Assembly (NCBI RefSeq): GCF_963678975.1
Contig: NC_089281.1
Span: forward strand, 28,045,151 to 28,109,150
Direction: 5' to 3'
Length of the DNA: 64,000 nucleotides
DNA from: Dysidea avara
Lineage: Eukaryota > Porifera > Demospongiae > Dictyoceratida > Dysideidae
Shown: one piece after another, positions 2,611 to 62,547 of the stretch
How positions within the stretch are numbered: position 1 is the first letter of the stretch
How the letters are laid out: every line of letters starts with the position of its first letter
Position numbers and translations under genes: made by a program
The notes under the pieces: model-generated
What the model was told of the DNA's origin: nothing
What the model saw: the letters and a program-made list of their open reading frames with translations, nothing else
Database searches by the model: none

Positions 2611-5600
2611 ATGGATGACCCACCTTTTAAACTTGGCGAGCCCAGATATGATCAGGTATTTCACTATAGTGGACGTTAAAACCTAAAGTCTTGATATAAC
2701 TTGCACATTAAACTAGCGAATTCTGGAAAAGCCTTGCCATTTCCCGGCCAAGCCACTTCCTCACGCATTAAATAACACTGGAATGGACTGGTGTGCGTCT
2801 AAAGTGAACCCATCGTTCACTTTATAACGCTGTTATTCTTTTGTGCAGTGCTTGTACTAGTCTAGAAATGTAGGATTTTGGTTGTATGGTGGATGGTGCC
2901 CAGGGAGATGCCGAAGTGTGTGCCAAATTTAGTTGGTATGAATCAACTGTTTGTGTATAATTAACCATGAGTTGTCCACAAAATTATGCTCCCTAAACTA
3001 TGCTGAGTGTTGTACACTCATTTTTGGTGCTCATTCTACCAGCTAGCATACTAGTTTCTAGATGCAGTTCTGTTGGATAGAAAAGATTGACCACTTTGTT
3101 ATTAATTGCAACAATATTCCATAGTGTCAGTATTTTGCATCTATAGTTACTACTTTCTTTCTACTGTAATTAGCAATTGGTACCTGCCTAGGTTGTTGGC
3201 AAAAGTCACCCTAAAATTTTATCAGTTTGTTCCAATGGACCTTATCCGCAATGACATCATAATATTTGACAAAATGGCTTTGTTTAGTGTGGGCACTTCG
3301 TATGTAATCACTAAAACTGAGCTTTGTTTGTGGATTTCACGACATGAAACTATTGGATAATAAAGGTAAGAAGCTAGTTACCATGATGTGGCGATGCAAA
3401 ATAATCCCACCAGATGAAACCAGACTTAAGTTTTGATATCGACGCAAAACCATGTGCATTTGTCTTGTAAGTAAGTATGTATGCCTCACCTTGCCCCTTG
3501 CTTGCAGTATGTAAACGTAAACATAGCGAACCACCATCTCTCCCATACCCTCTGTACAAAAATGTCCACACTATATCAGGCGCTATTTTGTACTTTGACA
3601 TCATTGCGGATAAGGTCCATATGCTTTAGGTCTTATGTAATGAAAATTTTAAAATGTGTAATTAGCTATAGCAAGAGTTCACACACACATAATGAACTCT
3701 TGTTGGCTAAGTTTTTCATGTTTTTATATTTGCACCACCCACAGATATGGTTTTGTATTAAAATTTTTGTCCTAAACATTTTAAACCAGCCCCCTTGATG
3801 TTTAAGAAATTAACCAGGGTTCTTAAAACATGATGGGATACAACTACAAATGCATGGTTAAGTGGTAAATTCAGTAGTTCATGTTAATTATGATGTAATA
3901 TAATCTTTTTTCAACAGTGGGACCTGTGATGTAATCTGTAGGGGTGCATAGTTCTGTGAACTCTTGACCTGGACAATAGGGACCCTTGCCAAGGTGTTTA
4001 TATGCAACTATCCACACAGTATATAGAGTACAAAGAGTTCAGGGAACATAGGTCTGGATGGCAGGGTCTGGTACAAGTTATGTTTTTTGAAGTTCATTAA
4101 CACTCATGGTTAACACTTCTGGTGTTAATGTGTGATTGCTGGGGTTGCTTGTATGTGTGACTAGAACATGGTTGAGCTGTTATTGACTGTGTCAACTTCC
4201 AGTCATATGATGTATTAAGGGGATAATTAAGCATGAGTACTGCATGGTGCTACTATGGATATTATGTCACTGTGTGCTGCTTGCTTGTGATCTGTGCAGT
4301 TGTGTAGTGAGTGTGTGTACTGTGTAGTGAGTGTGAGTGTGTAGTGTCCACTGTGTAGTGTGTATATTAGCGTGTGTATGTGTGGGTTAATATGTTTATA
4401 ATTTCATCATTTTCTTCTAGTCCACCTTTCAAGGTCGTTTGAGACACTTTTTTGACATAGTTGATCCAAGGACACTATTCACTACTAAGGTAAGTCACAT
4501 GATGACATCACACTACACAATGTGACCTCATGACCTATGTCAGGTCTGCTAATCTTGAAAGGTTACTATTATAACCTGTTGCTGTGGTTACCACATGCCT
4601 TATAAGGTAGTAGACCTACAATACCCATATGACCAGTAAAATTCCATCATCAGGATTGTTAACACTGCAGTACTGTATGCTGTAGTGGCTTCCTGTTATT
4701 AATAGAGTACCCAAAATTACTAAATTTAGTGAATGTATTGTACTTACATACATATTAGCACAAGCTGTTTGAAAGATAAGCAACTTCTACATATAAAGTA
4801 TATCAGCTCTACCACACAGTATTATAGTTATATTGTGTTTATGCAGTTTTTAGTAAACTGTTCAACTAATCAGAATTGGGGTCGCTACTCTAAAAATGTA
4901 ACTCGTTACATATTACTAGTTACTTCTATATAATATAACACGTTACAGTGGCATATTACTCCAGAAAAATAGTAACTAGTTACATATTACACATTACTTT
5001 GAGGGCTGTAACTAGTAATATCAGCCTACAACTACAAGTGACATGAGTGAGACGTGTATTTCTCTGGTGTAGTTCAGCCTCATGAACATACTTTGTTGTA
5101 GTATCTTGGTCTCACAGGCACTCCCCATACACTATCACTCTTTGTTCTTGCCTGTACAGCTGTATTCAATGCTGTCAGGACCCAAAATGCAACTAATCAC
5201 CTGCATTAAAAAGAAGTAATATCCATTATATATTACTCTGTAGTGTAGTGTTCATTTGTGATCATTTGCAGTACATTTGTTCATGGTCTTGTTTGTATTA
5301 GTGTACACACCAGGACACCTCACTAGCAAAGGTACTTTAGCTGGGGCTCCACTGTATGTTGTTTCAAGGTGGGAAGCTTTCACTGTCACTGGTGGGAAGC
5401 CACGTAGCACCAAACATTATTCTTTGTCATTGCAGCTGCACATACAGTACATGTTGAAAGCCATCACTTAGTAACAATATGCGAACTTCCAGATAGTTTA
5501 TTAGTTGCTACGGAGCAACCTACTACCCAACGATAGTATAGTATAGCTTCCTATTAACATTGTTCTGTTTGTAATTCCTTTGAGGATGTAGCTGTACGGT

Positions 5601-23700: not shown

Positions 23701-26700
23701 GATATTGATCAGTGAGAGCAACATGCGGTGAACTAGCAACATGTAAGTCAATAAATATAGTTTAGTAACAGCGTTAAAACTGAGTCAGGTCATCCAGGTC
23801 CTGCTTTACAGATTATCTGGGTCTGACCCGGCACATGCTAAATTATCGTAGATTTTTTCTTATACTTGTATCGAGGCAGTTGTAGTACTGTGCGTGGGCA
23901 TGAGACAATTAGTTATGCGGCACCCGACCCTAAAATTGAGACAGCAAGGACAATTAACTGGAGAAGAAAACATCTGAGAGGCAGAGGAAAAAGGTCTTCA
24001 TAGTACATCCATGTTTCACTGAGGGCTTGCTTGGTGAGTCTCGAATAATTTTGTGCATGTTTCACTCAAGCTCCAGTCGAAACTTGAAAGTTCTTTCACC
24101 TCGTGCTATATTTGTCTCTCGTCCACTCTTTTCATGCTATATTTTTCATATAGCACTCACGGCAATGCTTTAACTAATACATGTAACACTTTCACACCTC
24201 AGATCAAAGGAACCGCTTGGGCTACATACAAAATGTAGCCTGGGCTACAACTGGGCAGTGAATCACTTGTTACATGTAGTTGGTTTTCACAATATAGCCA
24301 GCCAATGGTTTATAATCTAATTTCTTCTAAACATCTTTTTATGGTAATTAGTCTACCTATGTACCAATTTTCAGCTTATTGAAGTAACTGGCTGGCTGAG
24401 AAAAACAAATTGTTTTCACAAAATTCTATAAAAACCTATTGAAATCTTCATACGGGACTTGAGCTATGAATGCTTATTTACAATGTGGTAGAAATAAAGT
24501 GTACCATTATCATTTCTTTGTTGTCTTCTTTGTGCATACGGAGGAATATCTGTATAGCTGGCTTCTTGACCGATGACACACTACCATGTGTCTTGATTCT
24601 CAGCAGCTGTGGCTGTCAACCAGTACTGAGTTATTCACCTGAGAACAGTAGGTCTGCCAAGGTTCTAAACCATAAAACAAACAAGCTCACCTCTTGCATG
24701 CAAGATGGACTTCTCATGGTCTGTACATTTGATAGAATGGTTATTAAATGTGACCGTCTCAGCAAAAAACCGACTTGTTTGCACAAGCATGCGTATTGAG
24801 AACAACAGAATTTAAAAATTATTTGTAAAATTATGCATGCTAATACACGCAAGTTTTTATCGGAAGAAATCAATTAAAACTATATACCATCTTATTCGCC
24901 TGCTCATGGAGAGTTTGAAAATCTTTGTTTCGTTTCTGTAGCTCTAACGGTATGCGTGTCATGTGCGTTTGTTTACAATGCGGTAAATGTAAGCAATCAT
25001 TTCTTCTACCAAACCACCTTCATATCCATATGTGCAAGTCACTACAGGGCTAACACTATATCTTGGCTGATGTGCTAATCCATGGTGAACATTTTAAGCC
25101 GAATTGCAATGTTGTAGACTAATCCAAACGGAAGTTATGGCTGTGAATGTAAGCGCCTGTAGTTTATTTTCAGTATAGTCGCTGTACAAATTGACTATCT
25201 TGCTCTTCCTACTGTCTAGCACTATAATTCCAAAACTACTCACCACAGAAAGCTGAAACTTTGGTGATCCATTCCTTGCATGGACACTGCAGATAATGCT
25301 GAGAAAAATTATTTTTAAATCCGAAATTGTGCGAACAAGTTAGGCTTTTGCTGAGACGGTCACAAATGTTCTATGAATTCATTTCTTGTGACTGGATTTG
25401 CAAGAATCTCACGTGTTCACATACAGGAGAGTGAGACGTTGAAGTAGTCAAGTAGTCATAGAATAGCACTTGGAAATTGAAGGCAAGTCACAAATCTGCT
25501 GGTAAACATGTCATGCACTAGTTATCCAACACCACAGAGACTGCTCAGGCCAGTCCAGAACCATGGAGGAGGTACCTCAGACCACCATTGAAGCGTTGTA
25601 CAAAAGCCTTCCAAGAAAGCACACAAAGCTTCTATGAAGCAAGGAGAGTATAGAAACTGATACTCTATGAACACAGCTATCAAGTTGATCTCTGAATCAT
25701 TATTTGCGCTAACCTGTTGGGTTTTGGCAAATCCATTTATCTCTCTGGGATCTTTTTCTACCTCAGAAATTTTCGCCCTTAGATATTGTATGATACCCAT
25801 AGACTTATTGATACCCATAGACTTATTGATACCCATAGACTTATTGATACCCATAGACTTCTCTTTATAAAGAATGGTGGTTCTTACTGCTTTTGCTTTA
25901 GCAGAGTAAATGTAGCTATGAGATTTTGGACTTTAGAATGTAATTTTAACCACCAGATAAAATGATGCCAGTTTGCTGCATTAGTCTAAATGCTGGCTGT
26001 GGAATATATACCTGATTGTTTTGAGAAAATCATACTGTAGTGTAGTGTAGTATGTACGTGTTGTGTAGTGTGGTATGTAGTATGTGTATTTCCTAATCCT
26101 TACACACACATGTACATGAAGTTTTTCTGTGTGAGAAGAAGAGGCTTGGGGTCTTAGCTAATAAACTTGAGAATGCAGGGTTAGGGTAAATAGTTACTTT
26201 TGTAACTAAGTTATGCAATATATTACTTTAAAAAGAACTAGTTACATCCCTTGTAACTAGTAACTTGTAATAGTTACAACTGTCCAAAAGTAACTAAGTT
26301 ACAATAATATTAACTAAAAATCAAAACACTTTGCATACAGCCAAACTAGTAGATACATTCTGTGTACTGTATTTAGGTTGTGTAGCAGACAGAATAATAG
26401 TTGAAACTGGACTGAAATGGTCACTTTCTTTGCTTGTAAGCAAGGGAAGCACACAATGTACATTACTATTCTTCCATTGGTAAGGCGTATCTGAGTGGAA
26501 TAACCATACAAATGTGTTTCAAAAGTTAACAAACAAGCCCTAGTAACTTAACTACTAGTTACTGTACAAAAGTAAGTTCTGTGCGATAAAAGTAATGAGT
26601 TAACTTTTTCTTTTATGTAACTACCCCAACTCTGGGAAAATGTGGTAGAAACTTATGTTAGGAAGACACTCCTCATTATTTCTGTGTTACAAAGGACAGC

Positions 26701-45009: not shown

Positions 45010-45400
45010 AAGTTGCCACTTTTGGCAACTTCTGGAATGTGCATAATTGCCAATTCCAGAAATCGCCAAAATTGGTCATTCCCAGAAATGCCAAATTAGG
45101 CTATTCCTGTACACATTGTGGTAGCTTCACAAAGTTACCAACATTGGAACTTACAAGCAGTAGCTGATAGTTCCCAAGTTTGGAATTTTGCGTACTCTGT
45201 TTATGATGTAAAGATTGATTGTGGGTTTTAGTATACAAATTTGGTAATCCAATGACTTGCCAAGATTGGTAATTTGCCGATTTTAGTTTAAAGTCATTCC
45301 ACAATTTTGCCAATTTTGGTAATAACAAAACTAGCCAATTTTGGCAATTACAAAACTTTCCAATTTTGGTAATTACAACATTTACCAATTTTGGCAATAA
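45010..45400. repeat. Array of CCAATTTTGG palindromic words (block 1)
   Basis: The ten-base word CCAATTTTGG occurs four times between about 45313 and 45393, separated by short TAATTACAA spacers (centres about 21-27 bases apart). Degenerate forms (CCAAAATTGG, CCACTTTTGG, CCAAGATTGG) run back to 45010. Block 2 lies at 47650-47835 beyond the TIR element. Confidence 0.8.
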
Positions 45401-46450: not shown

Positions 46451-46746
46451 TTTATACAGCAATAGTTTGTACATAAACGGATTATAATATTGGTTTTCTA
46501 CGTTATCCATGTGGCTGTTCAGTAGCAGTGGCTTATTGTTCACTGTACAGCAAGCGCTACCGGCGCTATGAGAAGCCATACAAATGCACGCGATTCTAGT
46601 GTTTGTTGCTGGAAAGCTTATCAGTCTTAAATAAATGAACGGCTGTTAGCTATACATATATATATATATAGTACCTTTGTAATATAAAAGAACAGTCACA
46701 GGATAACCAAGAAAACCTACTGTACCAACATTTTAATTTATTCTAC

Positions 46747-47570
46747 CATAGATAATAGAGTAAAGGGATAGGAAACGCAAGCGATTTCCGGTTTGATTTC
46801 CGTTACGCGTGACTTGAAAGGACAAGACAGTTTTGTGAGAATTAGTGTTCTAAGCAGCGTAAATAGTAATCCAACAGACTACAGTAAGTATTTAGGCCTA
46901 TGTGAGAGATTTTGGCGAGAGAATTCAGACCGTAGATTTTGTAACAAAGCGTATCGCATTAACCGTGATTCTTACACGCTGTCACACTTTCGCTCATCGT
47001 AACTTCATGCCTCGTCCATACCGCTTCTTTTATAGCCGGTTCCACTTTCGAATCTTGTGGTAAGCTAGGCGTGTCACCAACACAGTCTTTTACCGTTGCG
47101 TTGTACTGCAAGGTGGTTTAAACTTTTGGTTAAAAATTGAAGATACTTAGTCGTTTCTTCAAGCAACAGTTCCTGTTTTGCTCCAATATTTCCTCTGGTT
47201 CCCTCTGTTAAATGGTAAGGAATAGGTTTATCACAGTTAAAAGGATAGAATATATTTACGAAGAAAGTAAAGTGGTTTAAAGTAATTTTTGGGCCGTTTT
47301 TTTCACTTTCAATCTCCTTTAATTTTGCGTATAACTTCCTTGAGGGTTGGTACCATCCTATTTCCATCGATTACTTGAGTTCACTGTAGCGAAGTTTCAC
47401 AGTCGTTGGTTACAAAATTCTGTCGTTACAACAATTTGTTTCTCTTTGATACAAGCGCAGCAAACGTAACGAGTATGTTCGTGACGTACTACACGGAATT
47501 CCAATAGAAATGTACGTATTTTGTGACGCCACGTCATTGCGTTTCCTATCCCTTTACTCTATTATCTATG
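46747..47570. mobile_element. 824-base DNA transposon with perfect 34-base TIRs
   Basis: The ends 46747-46780 and 47537-47570 are exact reverse complements over 34 bases; the left end begins CATAGATAATAGAGTAAAGG. The element is flanked by ATTCTAC at 46740-46746 and again at 47571-47577, a perfect 7-base direct repeat. Two short frames inside (46793-47002 plus, 47074-47367 minus) carry no motif I recognise, so it is probably non-autonomous. Perfect ends and target duplication point to recent insertion. The superfamily is uncertain; target duplications of 7-8 bases occur in P-type elements. Confidence 0.9.
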
Positions 47571-47649
47571 ATTCTACCCAATACTATTTTTTATACTAAA
47601 ACCCACAAGTGATTGTTCATGTAGAAGAACATATAAAACATGCAATTAG

Positions 47650-47835
47650 AATCACCAAAATTGGCAGCTGTATATAAAATTTTCCAAAATTGGAAATTGC
47701 CAAAATTGATTGCTTTGGGAATTCCCAAACAAAAAATGGTATAATCCAGGCATGTGAAATAAATTACCAAAATTGGCTAGTCTGAAAACTACCAAATTTG
47801 GTATAATCCAAAGTTTCCAAAGTTGGACTTGTTTC
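47650..47835. repeat. Array of CCAAAATTGG-type words (block 2)
   Basis: CCAAAATTGG or a close variant appears at about 47655, 47682, 47700, 47769 and 47801 (CCAAATTTGG), the same word class as block 1. The two blocks flank the 824-base TIR element and its surroundings. Confidence 0.7.
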
Positions 47836-58813: not shown

Positions 58814-59656
58814 CAGTGGCGGATGTAGGATTTTAAAAAGGGGGTTTCTGAAAGCTGGTATAGCTATAGCTGAATAAGGCATGCATCTGATAACAGTTCT
58901 CCGGAAATTTTTGAGATTTTAGAAGCTCTGAAATCAGATTTTAGGCTATTTTTAGTTAGCAATTACAATAAATCCCAGGGGCGGATCCAGGGGGGTTCAA
59001 AGGGTTCCATGGAACCCCCCTTTTGAAAGAGCCTCTCAGTCTTACTCGAGATACTCTAATAGAGCAATCACAGTAATCGGTTTGAGCAGCAGTGTAGCAA
59101 GCTATGTATGTAGTTATAAATAAGGAAATATAGTTGGTGAGGACATCTATGGTGAGGGGCAGCTATGTCAGCAGGTGATGACATTTTTTTTTTTTTTTGT
59201 CTTCAACTTACAGCTAGACTGAAGTTGCAATTCCAAAGTGGAACCCCCCTTTTTAAAAGTCTGGATCCGCCCCTGAATCCAATACAAAAATAAATAAATA
59301 AATCCAATACTTTAAACTGTAAATACTATAGCTAACTATAAAGTAAATATACATTTTTAAATAATATATAGCTAGTGACTAGCTACAAACTGTAGCTTTG
59401 ATTGCCCTATTAGAGTATCTCAATCGTTTTTAATGTAGTGGGAGATGAAAAGTGAAGTATTGCTGAGGGTTTAATAGCTGTAAATGGTGTTAGTTAAGTG
59501 CAACCGCATGCATGCTACTGAACTACGGTGGCATATATTATCTATGGTATATATGACAAATTGTCAGTACAACAATGTTTATGTATTTATACTGCCACTG
59601 AGCTAATTTTAAAAGGGGGTTTCTGGGGTTTCGACACCCATCTAGACCCGCCACTG
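58814..59656. mobile_element. Outer element carrying a nested MITE (tentative)
   Basis: CAGTGGCGGAT.TAG at the left and CTAGACCCGCCACTG at the right could be the two ends of one element interrupted by the 58976-59275 MITE. However GGGGGTTTCTG appears near both ends in the same direction, which an ordinary TIR pair would not show, so two adjacent fragments are equally possible. Confidence 0.4.
58976..59275. mobile_element. 300-base MITE with CAGGGGCGGATCCAG ends
   Basis: Perfect 15-base TIRs, 58976-58990 and 59261-59275. AATCC directly precedes and directly follows. hAT elements with similar ends normally make 8-base duplications; here I can support only 5 bases. The interior holds one copy of the GAGATACTCTAATAGAGCA box and a T-run. 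Confidence 0.85.
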
Positions 59657-60294: not shown

Positions 60295-62547
60295 ATGGCG
60301 TCTGGTGATGAGAAGGAATGGCAACAGATCGAGGAAGAAATAACTTGTTCAATCTGTGGAGATCTTTTTACTGATCCGAAGACCATCCCGTGTTTACACA
60401 CGTTCTGTAAGCGATGTATTGAGAGGAGTATAGAATCCAATAAGAAAATGGCGAATGTCGTTTGTTGTCCGTTATGTCGAGCACCGCTTCCAAAAGATGA
60501 GTTTCCCACTAATTTTACGATTAATCGTTTAGTAGAAATTTACGGGAAACGACAGAAATCGGGAGAAGCTTCAGTGGAGACAAAGTGCGGTAATTGCGAG
60601 GAGAATGCAGCGATCACGTGGTGCGTGGAGTGTGAAGATCCTTTGTGTCACGATTGCACTGAAGCGCACAAAAAAGTAAAATTGTCGAAGCATCACAAAA
60701 TCGTTCCAATTAATGAATTTCTCCGAAATCCCAAACAAGCTCTATCTGCACCTGAAAAGGCAGAATTCTGCAAGGCCCACACAAAACAACCACTAGACCT
60801 GTACTGTAAGACTTGTAGTAGTTTAATATGTCGAGACTGCACCATGAAGGATCATCCTCGTGGTCATCGAGATCATGATTATGACTTTGTTGGTGAAGTG
60901 GTGGATGAAGAAGGAGAGAAGATGAAATGTGTTGTTGCACCACTGAAACAATTGCTAGAACAAGTGAGAAATGGAGTGAAGAAAGTTGAAGATTGTGAGA
61001 AACAAGTTGATATAGAAAGTAAAGCAAATATTGAGAAGATACGAGCTACATATGGTGAAGTATACAAGTTGTTGAAGCAACAACAAGAAGAAACAGTAGA
61101 AAGGGTAAACACCATCAAGGCTTCATTCAAAAAGAGACTTGCATTACAAAAGGAGGAAGGTCGATCAATTGAAGGCCATCTGATGAGCTGTGATGATTTT
61201 TGTACAAAAAATATGACAGTTAACAGACCAAGACAATTACTAACATATAACAAATGGGTTGAGAGTAGAGTTGATGAACTAACGAAGCAAGTGGAACATA
61301 CTAGCCTTGATCCAGAGTGTAAACCAAGTGACATGATTATACATTATCGTAAACCAGTTGACTTTGTTAGTGATTCAGTTTGTGATGTGTCTTGTCTTCC
61401 ACATTTGCCTGATTGTACTGTGATTGTTCCATTAGTATTTAGCAATCCAGTTAAAGTGACTGTTACAATGAAAGACATTTTTGGATTTCCTGTAGTAAAC
61501 CAATCAAAATATCTAGAAATTCAATGTAACAAGGAGAGGGAGTTTTTACAGCATACACGCATTGAAGAAGAGTCAAGAGGACAGTACCATATATGGTATA
61601 ATTCTAAAAGAAAAGAAGATCATTCATTATCAGTTCACTGGAGAGGATTAGCACTGAATCATGAAGAAGTTAAAGTATCTGTGAATGTACAAAACTATGA
61701 TACCATCAAGGAGGAGGTGAGGAACATCAAAGAAGCTGATAACAAAAGCCTTAAAGACCCTTATGTGTTGGCTAAAGGACCAAATGGTGAACTTATCGTT
61801 CGAAACAATTCAGCCAATCAGGTAGTAGTATTTGATAGACACTTTCAGTACTCTCATGTTGTTGGCAGAGAAGGTGATGAAAATGGACAGTTTCAGAACA
61901 TCACTGGAATAGCAGTAGACAAAAAGGGATATTTGTATGTTGCAGATTATGACTTGAACTGCATTCAAAAGTTTAAACTAAGTGGAGAATTTATGTCTCA
62001 GTTTGGCAGTAAAGGTACTGCCAATGGCCTATTTAAATCTCCTTGTGGTCTAGTTATGTCTCAGTCTGAGCTGTTATTTGTGTGTGACAACGGCAATCAC
62101 AGAATTCAAGTCTTTCAAAAGGAACAATTCTCTTACTGCTTTGGACAACGTGGCTCAAAACCTGGTGACTTGGATGACCCCAAAGATTTAACACTCGGCA
62201 ATAATGAAGAGCAGTTGTTCATTACAGACCATCAAAACAACAGAGTCCAGGTGTTTACTATAAAAGGACGATTACTTAAAATATTTGGTGTCGGCTATAC
62301 TGATGTTCCCTTCAAGTTGCAACATCCAACTGGAATACACTACACACCAGATGGGCACCTCTTGATTAGTTCCAGTGGCAATAACTGTGTGTTGGTGTTT
62401 AAGGAAGATGGTAAGTTTATATCGGCCATCGAAGGTATCTACCAAGACAAGAAAAGATTTGTTTATCCCTGTGGAGTAGTGATGATGGATGATGGACGGA
62501 TAGTAATAGCTGCTGGCTCTAATGGTGACAAACTTGTTGTGTTTTAA
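60295..62547 (+). CDS. TRIM-NHL protein, probable RING E3 ubiquitin ligase
   Basis: One uninterrupted frame of 750 residues. A RING finger has all eight ligands (C18, C21, C33, H35, C38, C41, C58, C61). B-box 1 (C98, C101, C110, C113, C118, C121, H125, H133) and B-box 2 (C159, H162, C171, C174, C179, C182, H187, H191 or H194) are complete. A coiled coil runs over about 200-340. A filamin-like domain is likely at about 370-470. NHL repeats fill about 490-750, with typical blocks GIAVDKKGYLYVADYDLNCIQKF, GLVMSQSELLFVCDNGNHRI, LFITDHQNNRVQVF, and HLLISSSGNNCVLVF. This is the full TRIM2/3/71 (class VII) plan. Such proteins ubiquitinate targets and some bind RNA through the NHL propeller; which applies here is unknown. 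The gene has no introns while neighbouring genes have many, so retroposition or membership in an expanded intronless family is possible. No poly-A tail trace is obvious. Confidence 0.95.
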   Translation: MASGDEKEWQQIEEEITCSICGDLFTDPKTIPCLHTFCKRCIERSIESNKKMANVVCCPLCRAPLPKDEFPTNFTINRLVEIYGKRQKSGEASVETKCGNCEENAAITWCVECEDPLCHDCTEAHKKVKLSKHHKIVPINEFLRNPKQALSAPEKAEFCKAHTKQPLDLYCKTCSSLICRDCTMKDHPRGHRDHDYDFVGEVVDEEGEKMKCVVAPLKQLLEQVRNGVKKVEDCEKQVDIESKANIEKIRATYGEVYKLLKQQQEETVERVNTIKASFKKRLALQKEEGRSIEGHLMSCDDFCTKNMTVNRPRQLLTYNKWVESRVDELTKQVEHTSLDPECKPSDMIIHYRKPVDFVSDSVCDVSCLPHLPDCTVIVPLVFSNPVKVTVTMKDIFGFPVVNQSKYLEIQCNKEREFLQHTRIEEESRGQYHIWYNSKRKEDHSLSVHWRGLALNHEEVKVSVNVQNYDTIKEEVRNIKEADNKSLKDPYVLAKGPNGELIVRNNSANQVVVFDRHFQYSHVVGREGDENGQFQNITGIAVDKKGYLYVADYDLNCIQKFKLSGEFMSQFGSKGTANGLFKSPCGLVMSQSELLFVCDNGNHRIQVFQKEQFSYCFGQRGSKPGDLDDPKDLTLGNNEEQLFITDHQNNRVQVFTIKGRLLKIFGVGYTDVPFKLQHPTGIHYTPDGHLLISSSGNNCVLVFKEDGKFISAIEGIYQDKKRFVYPCGVVMMDDGRIVIAAGSNGDKLVVF

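Follow-up and report, generated by a model that had tools for sequence, protein, structure and literature searches.

A probable non-autonomous P-superfamily transposon with 7-bp target-site duplications in Dysidea avara, and long relatives with a putatively split transposase

The P transposase is a main model of DDE transposition. Drosophila P and zebrafish Pdre2 combine an RNase H domain that carries a GTP-binding insertion with 8-bp target-site duplications, and the autonomous P elements of Anopheles gambiae have terminal inverted repeats (TIRs) of 27-31 bp (PMC1562414). Galileo, a Drosophila member of the same superfamily, produces 7-bp duplications with a palindromic consensus, GTAGTAC in D. 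buzzatii (PMC2775673), GTATTAC in D. willistoni, where three copies have 8 bp, and GTANTAC across six species (PMC4168063). Here we describe an 824-bp element found in a stretch of 64,000 nucleotides of the sponge Dysidea avara (contig NC_089281.1, positions 28,045,151 to 28,109,150; hereafter the window). From sequence comparisons we consider it, with high confidence, to be a non-autonomous cut-and-paste transposon of the P superfamily, resembling a miniature inverted-repeat transposable element (MITE), since a long relative elsewhere in the genome has the same ends, a 7-bp duplication and P-transposase domains.

The Dysidea family shares with Galileo the P-superfamily transposase, the 7-bp duplications and their palindromic consensus (about GTWNWAC here), and differs from it in the TIRs, which are long and internally repetitive in Galileo (PMC3573991) and of 34 bp in the window. 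Like the P-MITEs of A. gambiae, in which P-element TIRs and ends surround a centre unrelated to any P, the window element joins P-type ends to an unrelated interior, although the mosquito duplications are of 8 bp (PMC1562414). Its TIR starts with CATA, as does that of Pdre2 (CATACCTGTCAAC; PMC10983969), and its long relative encodes an RNase H with a GTP-binding insertion in the manner of Drosophila P and Pdre2. The Drosophila P transposase has a THAP domain at its N terminus and its C-terminal domain in line (PMC7776569), neither of which is detectable in the long relative. It does have a second, convergent gene, of which the accessible parts of the Galileo literature make no mention.

The initial annotation of the window had delimited an 824-base transposon with perfect 34-base TIRs and a 7-base duplication, and these coordinates are exact: the TIRs are complementary at 34/34 positions and ATTCTAC lies directly outside both ends (Table 1). 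The longest stop-to-stop frame in the whole element is 98 aa. The window was scanned for inverted repeats flanked by direct repeats, reporting pairs with either a TIR of at least 18 bp or a duplication of at least 4 bp; seven pairs were found, and only this element passes both limits. Within the window the 20-base element end (up to three mismatches) occurs only at the two ends of the element, with 0.01 occurrences expected by chance. Repeats of the CCAAAATTGG type, partly forming a 25-bp tandem array, lie on either side of the element (window 45307-45400 and about 47640-47790).

The element is one of many copies in the 550.8-Mb genome, in which the window lies on contig C10; genome-wide searches scored the best candidates only, so the genome counts given here are lower bounds. 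The first 28 bases of the element end are present at 201 places (up to two mismatches), as against none for a reversed control pattern. In a DNA search with the 824-bp element, the best 40 of 417 candidates were all full-length, one being the window's own copy and 39 matching at 98%. These 40 formed a first set, the 39 others being examined with 60-bp flanks, and a second set of 16 copies with both ends was drawn from one-ended matches to the 28-base end. The 7-bp duplication is exact in 39/40 copies of the first set and has one mismatch in 1/40, none (0/40) extending to 8 bp, unlike a few Galileo copies of D. willistoni (PMC4168063); in the second set it is exact in 13/16, with one mismatch in 3/16. 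Pooled, 52 of the 56 two-ended short copies have an exact duplication and the other four a single mismatch. A genome search for the element end and a check that the duplications are consistently of 7 bases had both been proposed with the initial annotation, and both came out in its favour. Loci with only one end in the alignment (L054, L055 and L070) were excluded from the duplication count, and two seeming exceptions, L037 and L038, proved to have rearranged ends; both carry a 7-bp duplication, which is exact in one of them and has a mismatch in the other.

Mean divergence among 39 aligned copies (L038 excluded) is 0.96%, a figure that is biased low because the alignment was made from the copies that match the window best. 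Identity in the second set is mostly 92-98%, with one partial copy at 86%. The recent mobility previously suggested on the strength of the intact ends fits the low mean divergence, within the limits of a sample made up of the closest copies, and we infer that the family has been recently active. When 100 of the 201 places were examined for a partner end, 30 had none nearby, of which 20 were read over 10 kb and 10 over ~360 bases. One of these 30 (L058) is a long copy, another (L081) matches over 74 columns only, and the rest are of the short form, L070 in part. A 1242-bp version of the short element, with ~400 additional internal bases and an exact 7-bp duplication, was also seen (L066). The 20-base end also matched one place in IMG/VR (L001) and one in a GTDB contig (L002), and both were taken as chance.

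Insertion sites are varied in sequence, the 7-mers read not being one recurring gene sequence, and they share a palindromic preference. At 40 sites the duplication has T at position 2 in 35, A at position 6 in 32, C at position 7 in 24 and G at position 1 in 18, and the preference reaches beyond the duplication to the third base outward, which is T on one side (29/40) and A on the other (31/40). Compared on the best strand with GTAGTAC, the Galileo consensus of D. buzzatii, the 40 duplications match at a mean of 3.8 of 7 positions, where random 7-mers drawn from the window match at 2.0. A duplication of 7 bp with varied sequence sets the family apart from hAT (8 bp), mariner (TA) and piggyBac (TTAA) elements, which the initial annotation had already discounted on this ground.

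The long copy, L058:61-5621, is a 5561-bp element found among the partnerless ends read over 10 kb. GAAAAAC stands on both of its sides as an exact 7-bp duplication. Its two ends have 67 bp and 106 bp, respectively, in common with those of the short element (Table 1). Two further long copies have both tips, C10:26206759-26212331 with the duplication CTACTAG and C15:6147243-6152782 with GTAGCGG, so that exact 7-bp duplications are present in 3/3 such copies, and across the end pieces compared the long copies are 98-99% identical. Another two, C5:17743124 and C5:18108044, are near-identical and lack 12 bases at the same tip, the stretches read on the other side starting at element base 390; the same tips missing from copies 365 kb apart suggests a segmental duplication.

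The plus strand of L058 has a 561-aa frame (L058:1238-2920) matching the Pfam family TNP-like_RNaseH_N (PF21787; E 4.4e-23). The next two blocks match TNP-like_GBD (PF21788) at E 3.4e-4 and 2.1e-6 separately and at E 3.6e-11 when joined into a single frame in which X replaces stops; a fourth matches TNP-like_RNaseH_C (PF21789; E 2.7e-7). Judged by their sequence, these domains are the catalytic and predicted GTP-binding parts of P-type transposases, and the acidic motifs FDEMH, CDGAS and LEQFFG, which we take to be catalytic, are present. Plausible GT and AG borders, assessed by eye, delimit the gaps between the blocks. Within the gap between the first two blocks (L058 ~2905-3235), a GGGGTGTAC...GTACACCCC segment resembles a small nested element.

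L058 supplies the long copy with a transposase frame that the initial annotation had proposed to look for, and with its TIRs and subterminal ends in common with the short element, its exact 7-bp duplication and its P-transposase domains it bears out the earlier naming of P-type elements as a candidate. The long form and the short copies have between them a P/THAP9-type RNase H, the GTP-binding insertion domain, TIRs and a duplication within the 7- to 8-bp range of the superfamily; the THAP domain that Drosophila P and THAP9 carry, and an in-line C-terminal domain as in Drosophila P, were not treated as defining.

Several observations weigh against this classification. The P elements of Drosophila, Anopheles and zebrafish duplicate 8 bp (PMC7776569, PMC1562414, PMC10983969). 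The Drosophila P transposase in PDB was missed both by the 561-aa frame and by a three-sequence RNase H profile, so that membership in the P superfamily rests on Pfam. No THAP domain (PF05485) was found in the three plus-strand frames of L058:95-1242, and when the best 150 of 586 THAP candidates were compared with the 99 top PF21787 rows, 0/99 had one of these within 6 kb and one had it within 12 kb, in another orientation. The L058 transposase changes frame between its third and fourth blocks, and this copy may be inactive. Derivation of the short element from L058 by plain internal deletion was also considered and ruled out, since the interior of the short element is unrelated to the long copy. 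Dada elements have duplications of 6-7 bp, and a merely P-like member of Dada or of another superfamily with a 7-bp stagger would account for a duplication length that is unusual among the classic 8-bp P elements. We regard such an origin as highly improbable, because the TNP-like (P) domains are encoded in a long copy that shares both the ends and the 7-bp length of the duplication, Galileo produces 7-bp duplications from within the P superfamily, and the insertion sites are varied 7-mers with no single recurring gene sequence.

Of a P-superfamily element the short form keeps only the ends, each made up of the 34-bp TIR and a subterminal stretch of ~30 to 70 bp, and it would be moved in trans by the transposase of its ~5.5-kb relatives. 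The transposase would cut at the TIRs and insert, with a 7-bp stagger, at palindromic sites resembling GTWNWAC, and repair would yield the 7-bp duplication. The frame change in L058, the two other long copies without tips in the stretches read and the C10 copy, where the open frame around PF21787 is only 233 aa, would also suit a relic whose mobilizing source has gone from the genome. A relic is unlikely in our assessment, given that the PF21787 frame is free of stops at both L058 (561 aa) and the C15 copy (541 aa), that the end pieces of the long copies are so alike, and that the nearest 39 short copies differ little, allowing for the downward bias of their mean. With the P-superfamily assignment, the previously unassigned window element gains a place in a non-autonomous family whose type of source is identified.

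The second gene of the long element is a 371-aa frame on the minus strand (L058:4415-5527), convergent with the transposase; its stop and the end of the transposase frame are ~110 bases apart. The L058 protein has no Pfam match at E 1 and only weak matches in PHROGs (E 0.035 to 0.21), and in viral contigs no relative of the transposase, of the second protein or of the second-family alignment was found. A genome protein search with it, scoring the best 110 of 381 candidates, gave at least 111 matches at 104 loci; 94 of the 111 listed rows are at 25-36% identity, and many are open frames of 320-350 aa. A convergent PF21787 match lies within 7 kb of 72 of the 104 loci (0.4 expected by chance), one locus has it on the same strand, one has it in divergent orientation and 30 have none among the matches listed. 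These 30 may be solo genes or truncated elements, or may reflect the limit of the search. The PF21787 comparison set consisted of the best 150 rows of 447 candidates, and 73 of those 150 loci are paired with a second gene; as pairing was judged among the matches listed, unpaired loci of either kind say little.

Three loci of diverged sequence were read directly, and PF21787 and PF21788 are in convergent position in all three (PF21788 under the cut-off in two), with PF21789 in two and the corresponding block of the third recovered by tblastn (E 1e-26). The arrangement has been kept while sequence identity fell to ~30%, and selection therefore probably acts on the second gene as a component of the element. 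Ratios of nonsynonymous to synonymous change (dN/dS) between close copies, 1.19 (18 changes) and 0.57 (6) for the second gene and 0.20 (5) for a transposase piece, are based on too few changes to use.

We think it more likely than not that the second protein is the detached C-terminal domain of a P transposase, acting as a second subunit, an assignment less certain than that to the P superfamily. In the first alignment of second proteins, PF12596 (Tnp_P_element_C) matches three of eight members, each time near one and the same conserved motif (E 0.0054, 0.063 and 0.13); all three matches are under the cut-off, and other families match there at chance level. With E 1 as the limit, PF12596 had 13 matches in the genome, of which four exceed the curated cut-off; the top match, at C8:18761838 (24.1 bits, E 0.02), is convergent to a P transposase. 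Four of the 13 were examined, two over and two under the cut-off, and 4/4 belong to the second-gene family, with 79 to 145 bits against a second-gene profile built without them. A ten-member second-gene profile has as its best PDB match, among 177,635 sequences, the P transposase of Drosophila (6p5a_B, E 0.0013); this chain B comprises 135 residues, and the alignment consists of two collinear blocks, AGY followed by GGL.

The layout of the catalytic gene points the same way. Its frame at L058 ends 78 residues past the E motif, and at two diverged loci ~300 bases separate the end of the PF21789 match from the second gene (coordinates compared by hand), although the catalytic gene may have a short or spliced in-line C-terminal domain. 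Most full-length second proteins have basic, LRK-type tails. In Drosophila the C-terminal domain of the P transposase is all helical, is tethered to the RNase H part through a disordered linker, has basic residues at its end, packs against another subunit and contacts both transposon and target DNA (PMC7776569). The PF12596 and PDB resemblances, the short catalytic frame, the little room behind it and the basic tails make a C-terminal domain encoded as a separate gene on the opposite strand the simplest reading.

A different identity for the second gene, that of an accessory protein such as a regulator or a captured host gene, whose AGY/GGL likeness to P would be due to chance or very distant ancestry, is possible though less probable. 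It would accommodate a similarity to the P C-terminal domain that is short and weak, and several results count in its favour and against the detached domain. The PF12596 matches in the first alignment are few and under the cut-off, and the genome search, run at so permissive a limit, had nothing better than E 0.02. Two of the four sequences found through PF12596, L099 and L101 (E 2.1e-4 and 1.2e-3, under the cut-off in that search), are 95% alike. The first second-gene profile, which lacked L099-L102, matched no P transposase in PDB, and the blocks of the 6p5a_B alignment are not significant singly (i-E 0.17 and 18); nor is the PDB result independent, as four of the ten profile members had been found through PF12596. 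Compared directly, the second protein and its own element's transposase show no similarity (E 3.1). An accessory protein sits poorly, however, with the membership in the second-gene family of all four sequences examined from only 13 PF12596 matches in 550 Mb, with the collinear order of the PDB alignment and its first rank in so large a set, and with a catalytic frame that stops shortly after its E motif where Drosophila has a separate helical domain.

On balance we lean towards a large P lineage with a split transposase, in which a catalytic protein (RNase H and GTP-binding, without THAP and C-terminal domains) is accompanied by a convergent protein that would supply the C-terminal DNA-binding domain in trans. 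The window element would then, quite plausibly, be a non-autonomous member of this proposed two-component system. In such a system the catalytic protein would pair both ends and cut, the second protein would provide the C-terminal contacts, and the two-protein complex would insert at GTWNWAC-like sites with the 7-bp stagger, short elements needing their ends alone. No two-gene or split P element was found in print by title or abstract opening, a survey with most subscription papers and Repbase outside its scope. If a lineage with a separate C-terminal gene does exist, the domain would be able to act as an independent subunit, the lineage would offer a two-component P system to dissect, and it would help to ask how a stagger of 7 rather than 8 bp arises.

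Table 1. Parts of the 824-bp element and its flanks, in window coordinates.
Feature	Position	Strand	Basis
Left target-site duplication ATTCTAC	46740..46746	.	Sequence comparison
Left 34-bp terminal inverted repeat	46747..46780	+	First 28 bases at 201 genome places, up to two mismatches
Left end common to the 5.56-kb P element (L058:61-5621)	46747..46813	+	94% over 68 columns
Interior without evident coding capacity	46814..47464	.	No significant match to the long element, best E 0.16
Right end common to the 5.56-kb P element	47465..47570	+	86% over 106 columns
Right 34-bp terminal inverted repeat	47537..47570	-	Complement of the left repeat
Right target-site duplication ATTCTAC	47571..47577	.	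Sequence comparison

The window has other features of note. A 300-bp element at 58976-59275 has a 15-bp inverted repeat, CAGGGGCGGATCCAG, with AATCC on either side; we take it to be hAT-like, yet its direct repeat is of 5 bp and not 8. A 616-bp stretch at 24749-25364 is ended by a perfect 19-bp inverted repeat, TGTGACCGTCTCAGCAAAA, the flanking repeat being only AA. Two coding regions, of a kind that points to an animal genome, were also seen: at 60295-62547 a long open frame whose product would be a TRIM-type (RING/B-box/NHL) protein and, on the minus strand at 564-2334, rhodanese and dual-specificity phosphatase domains.
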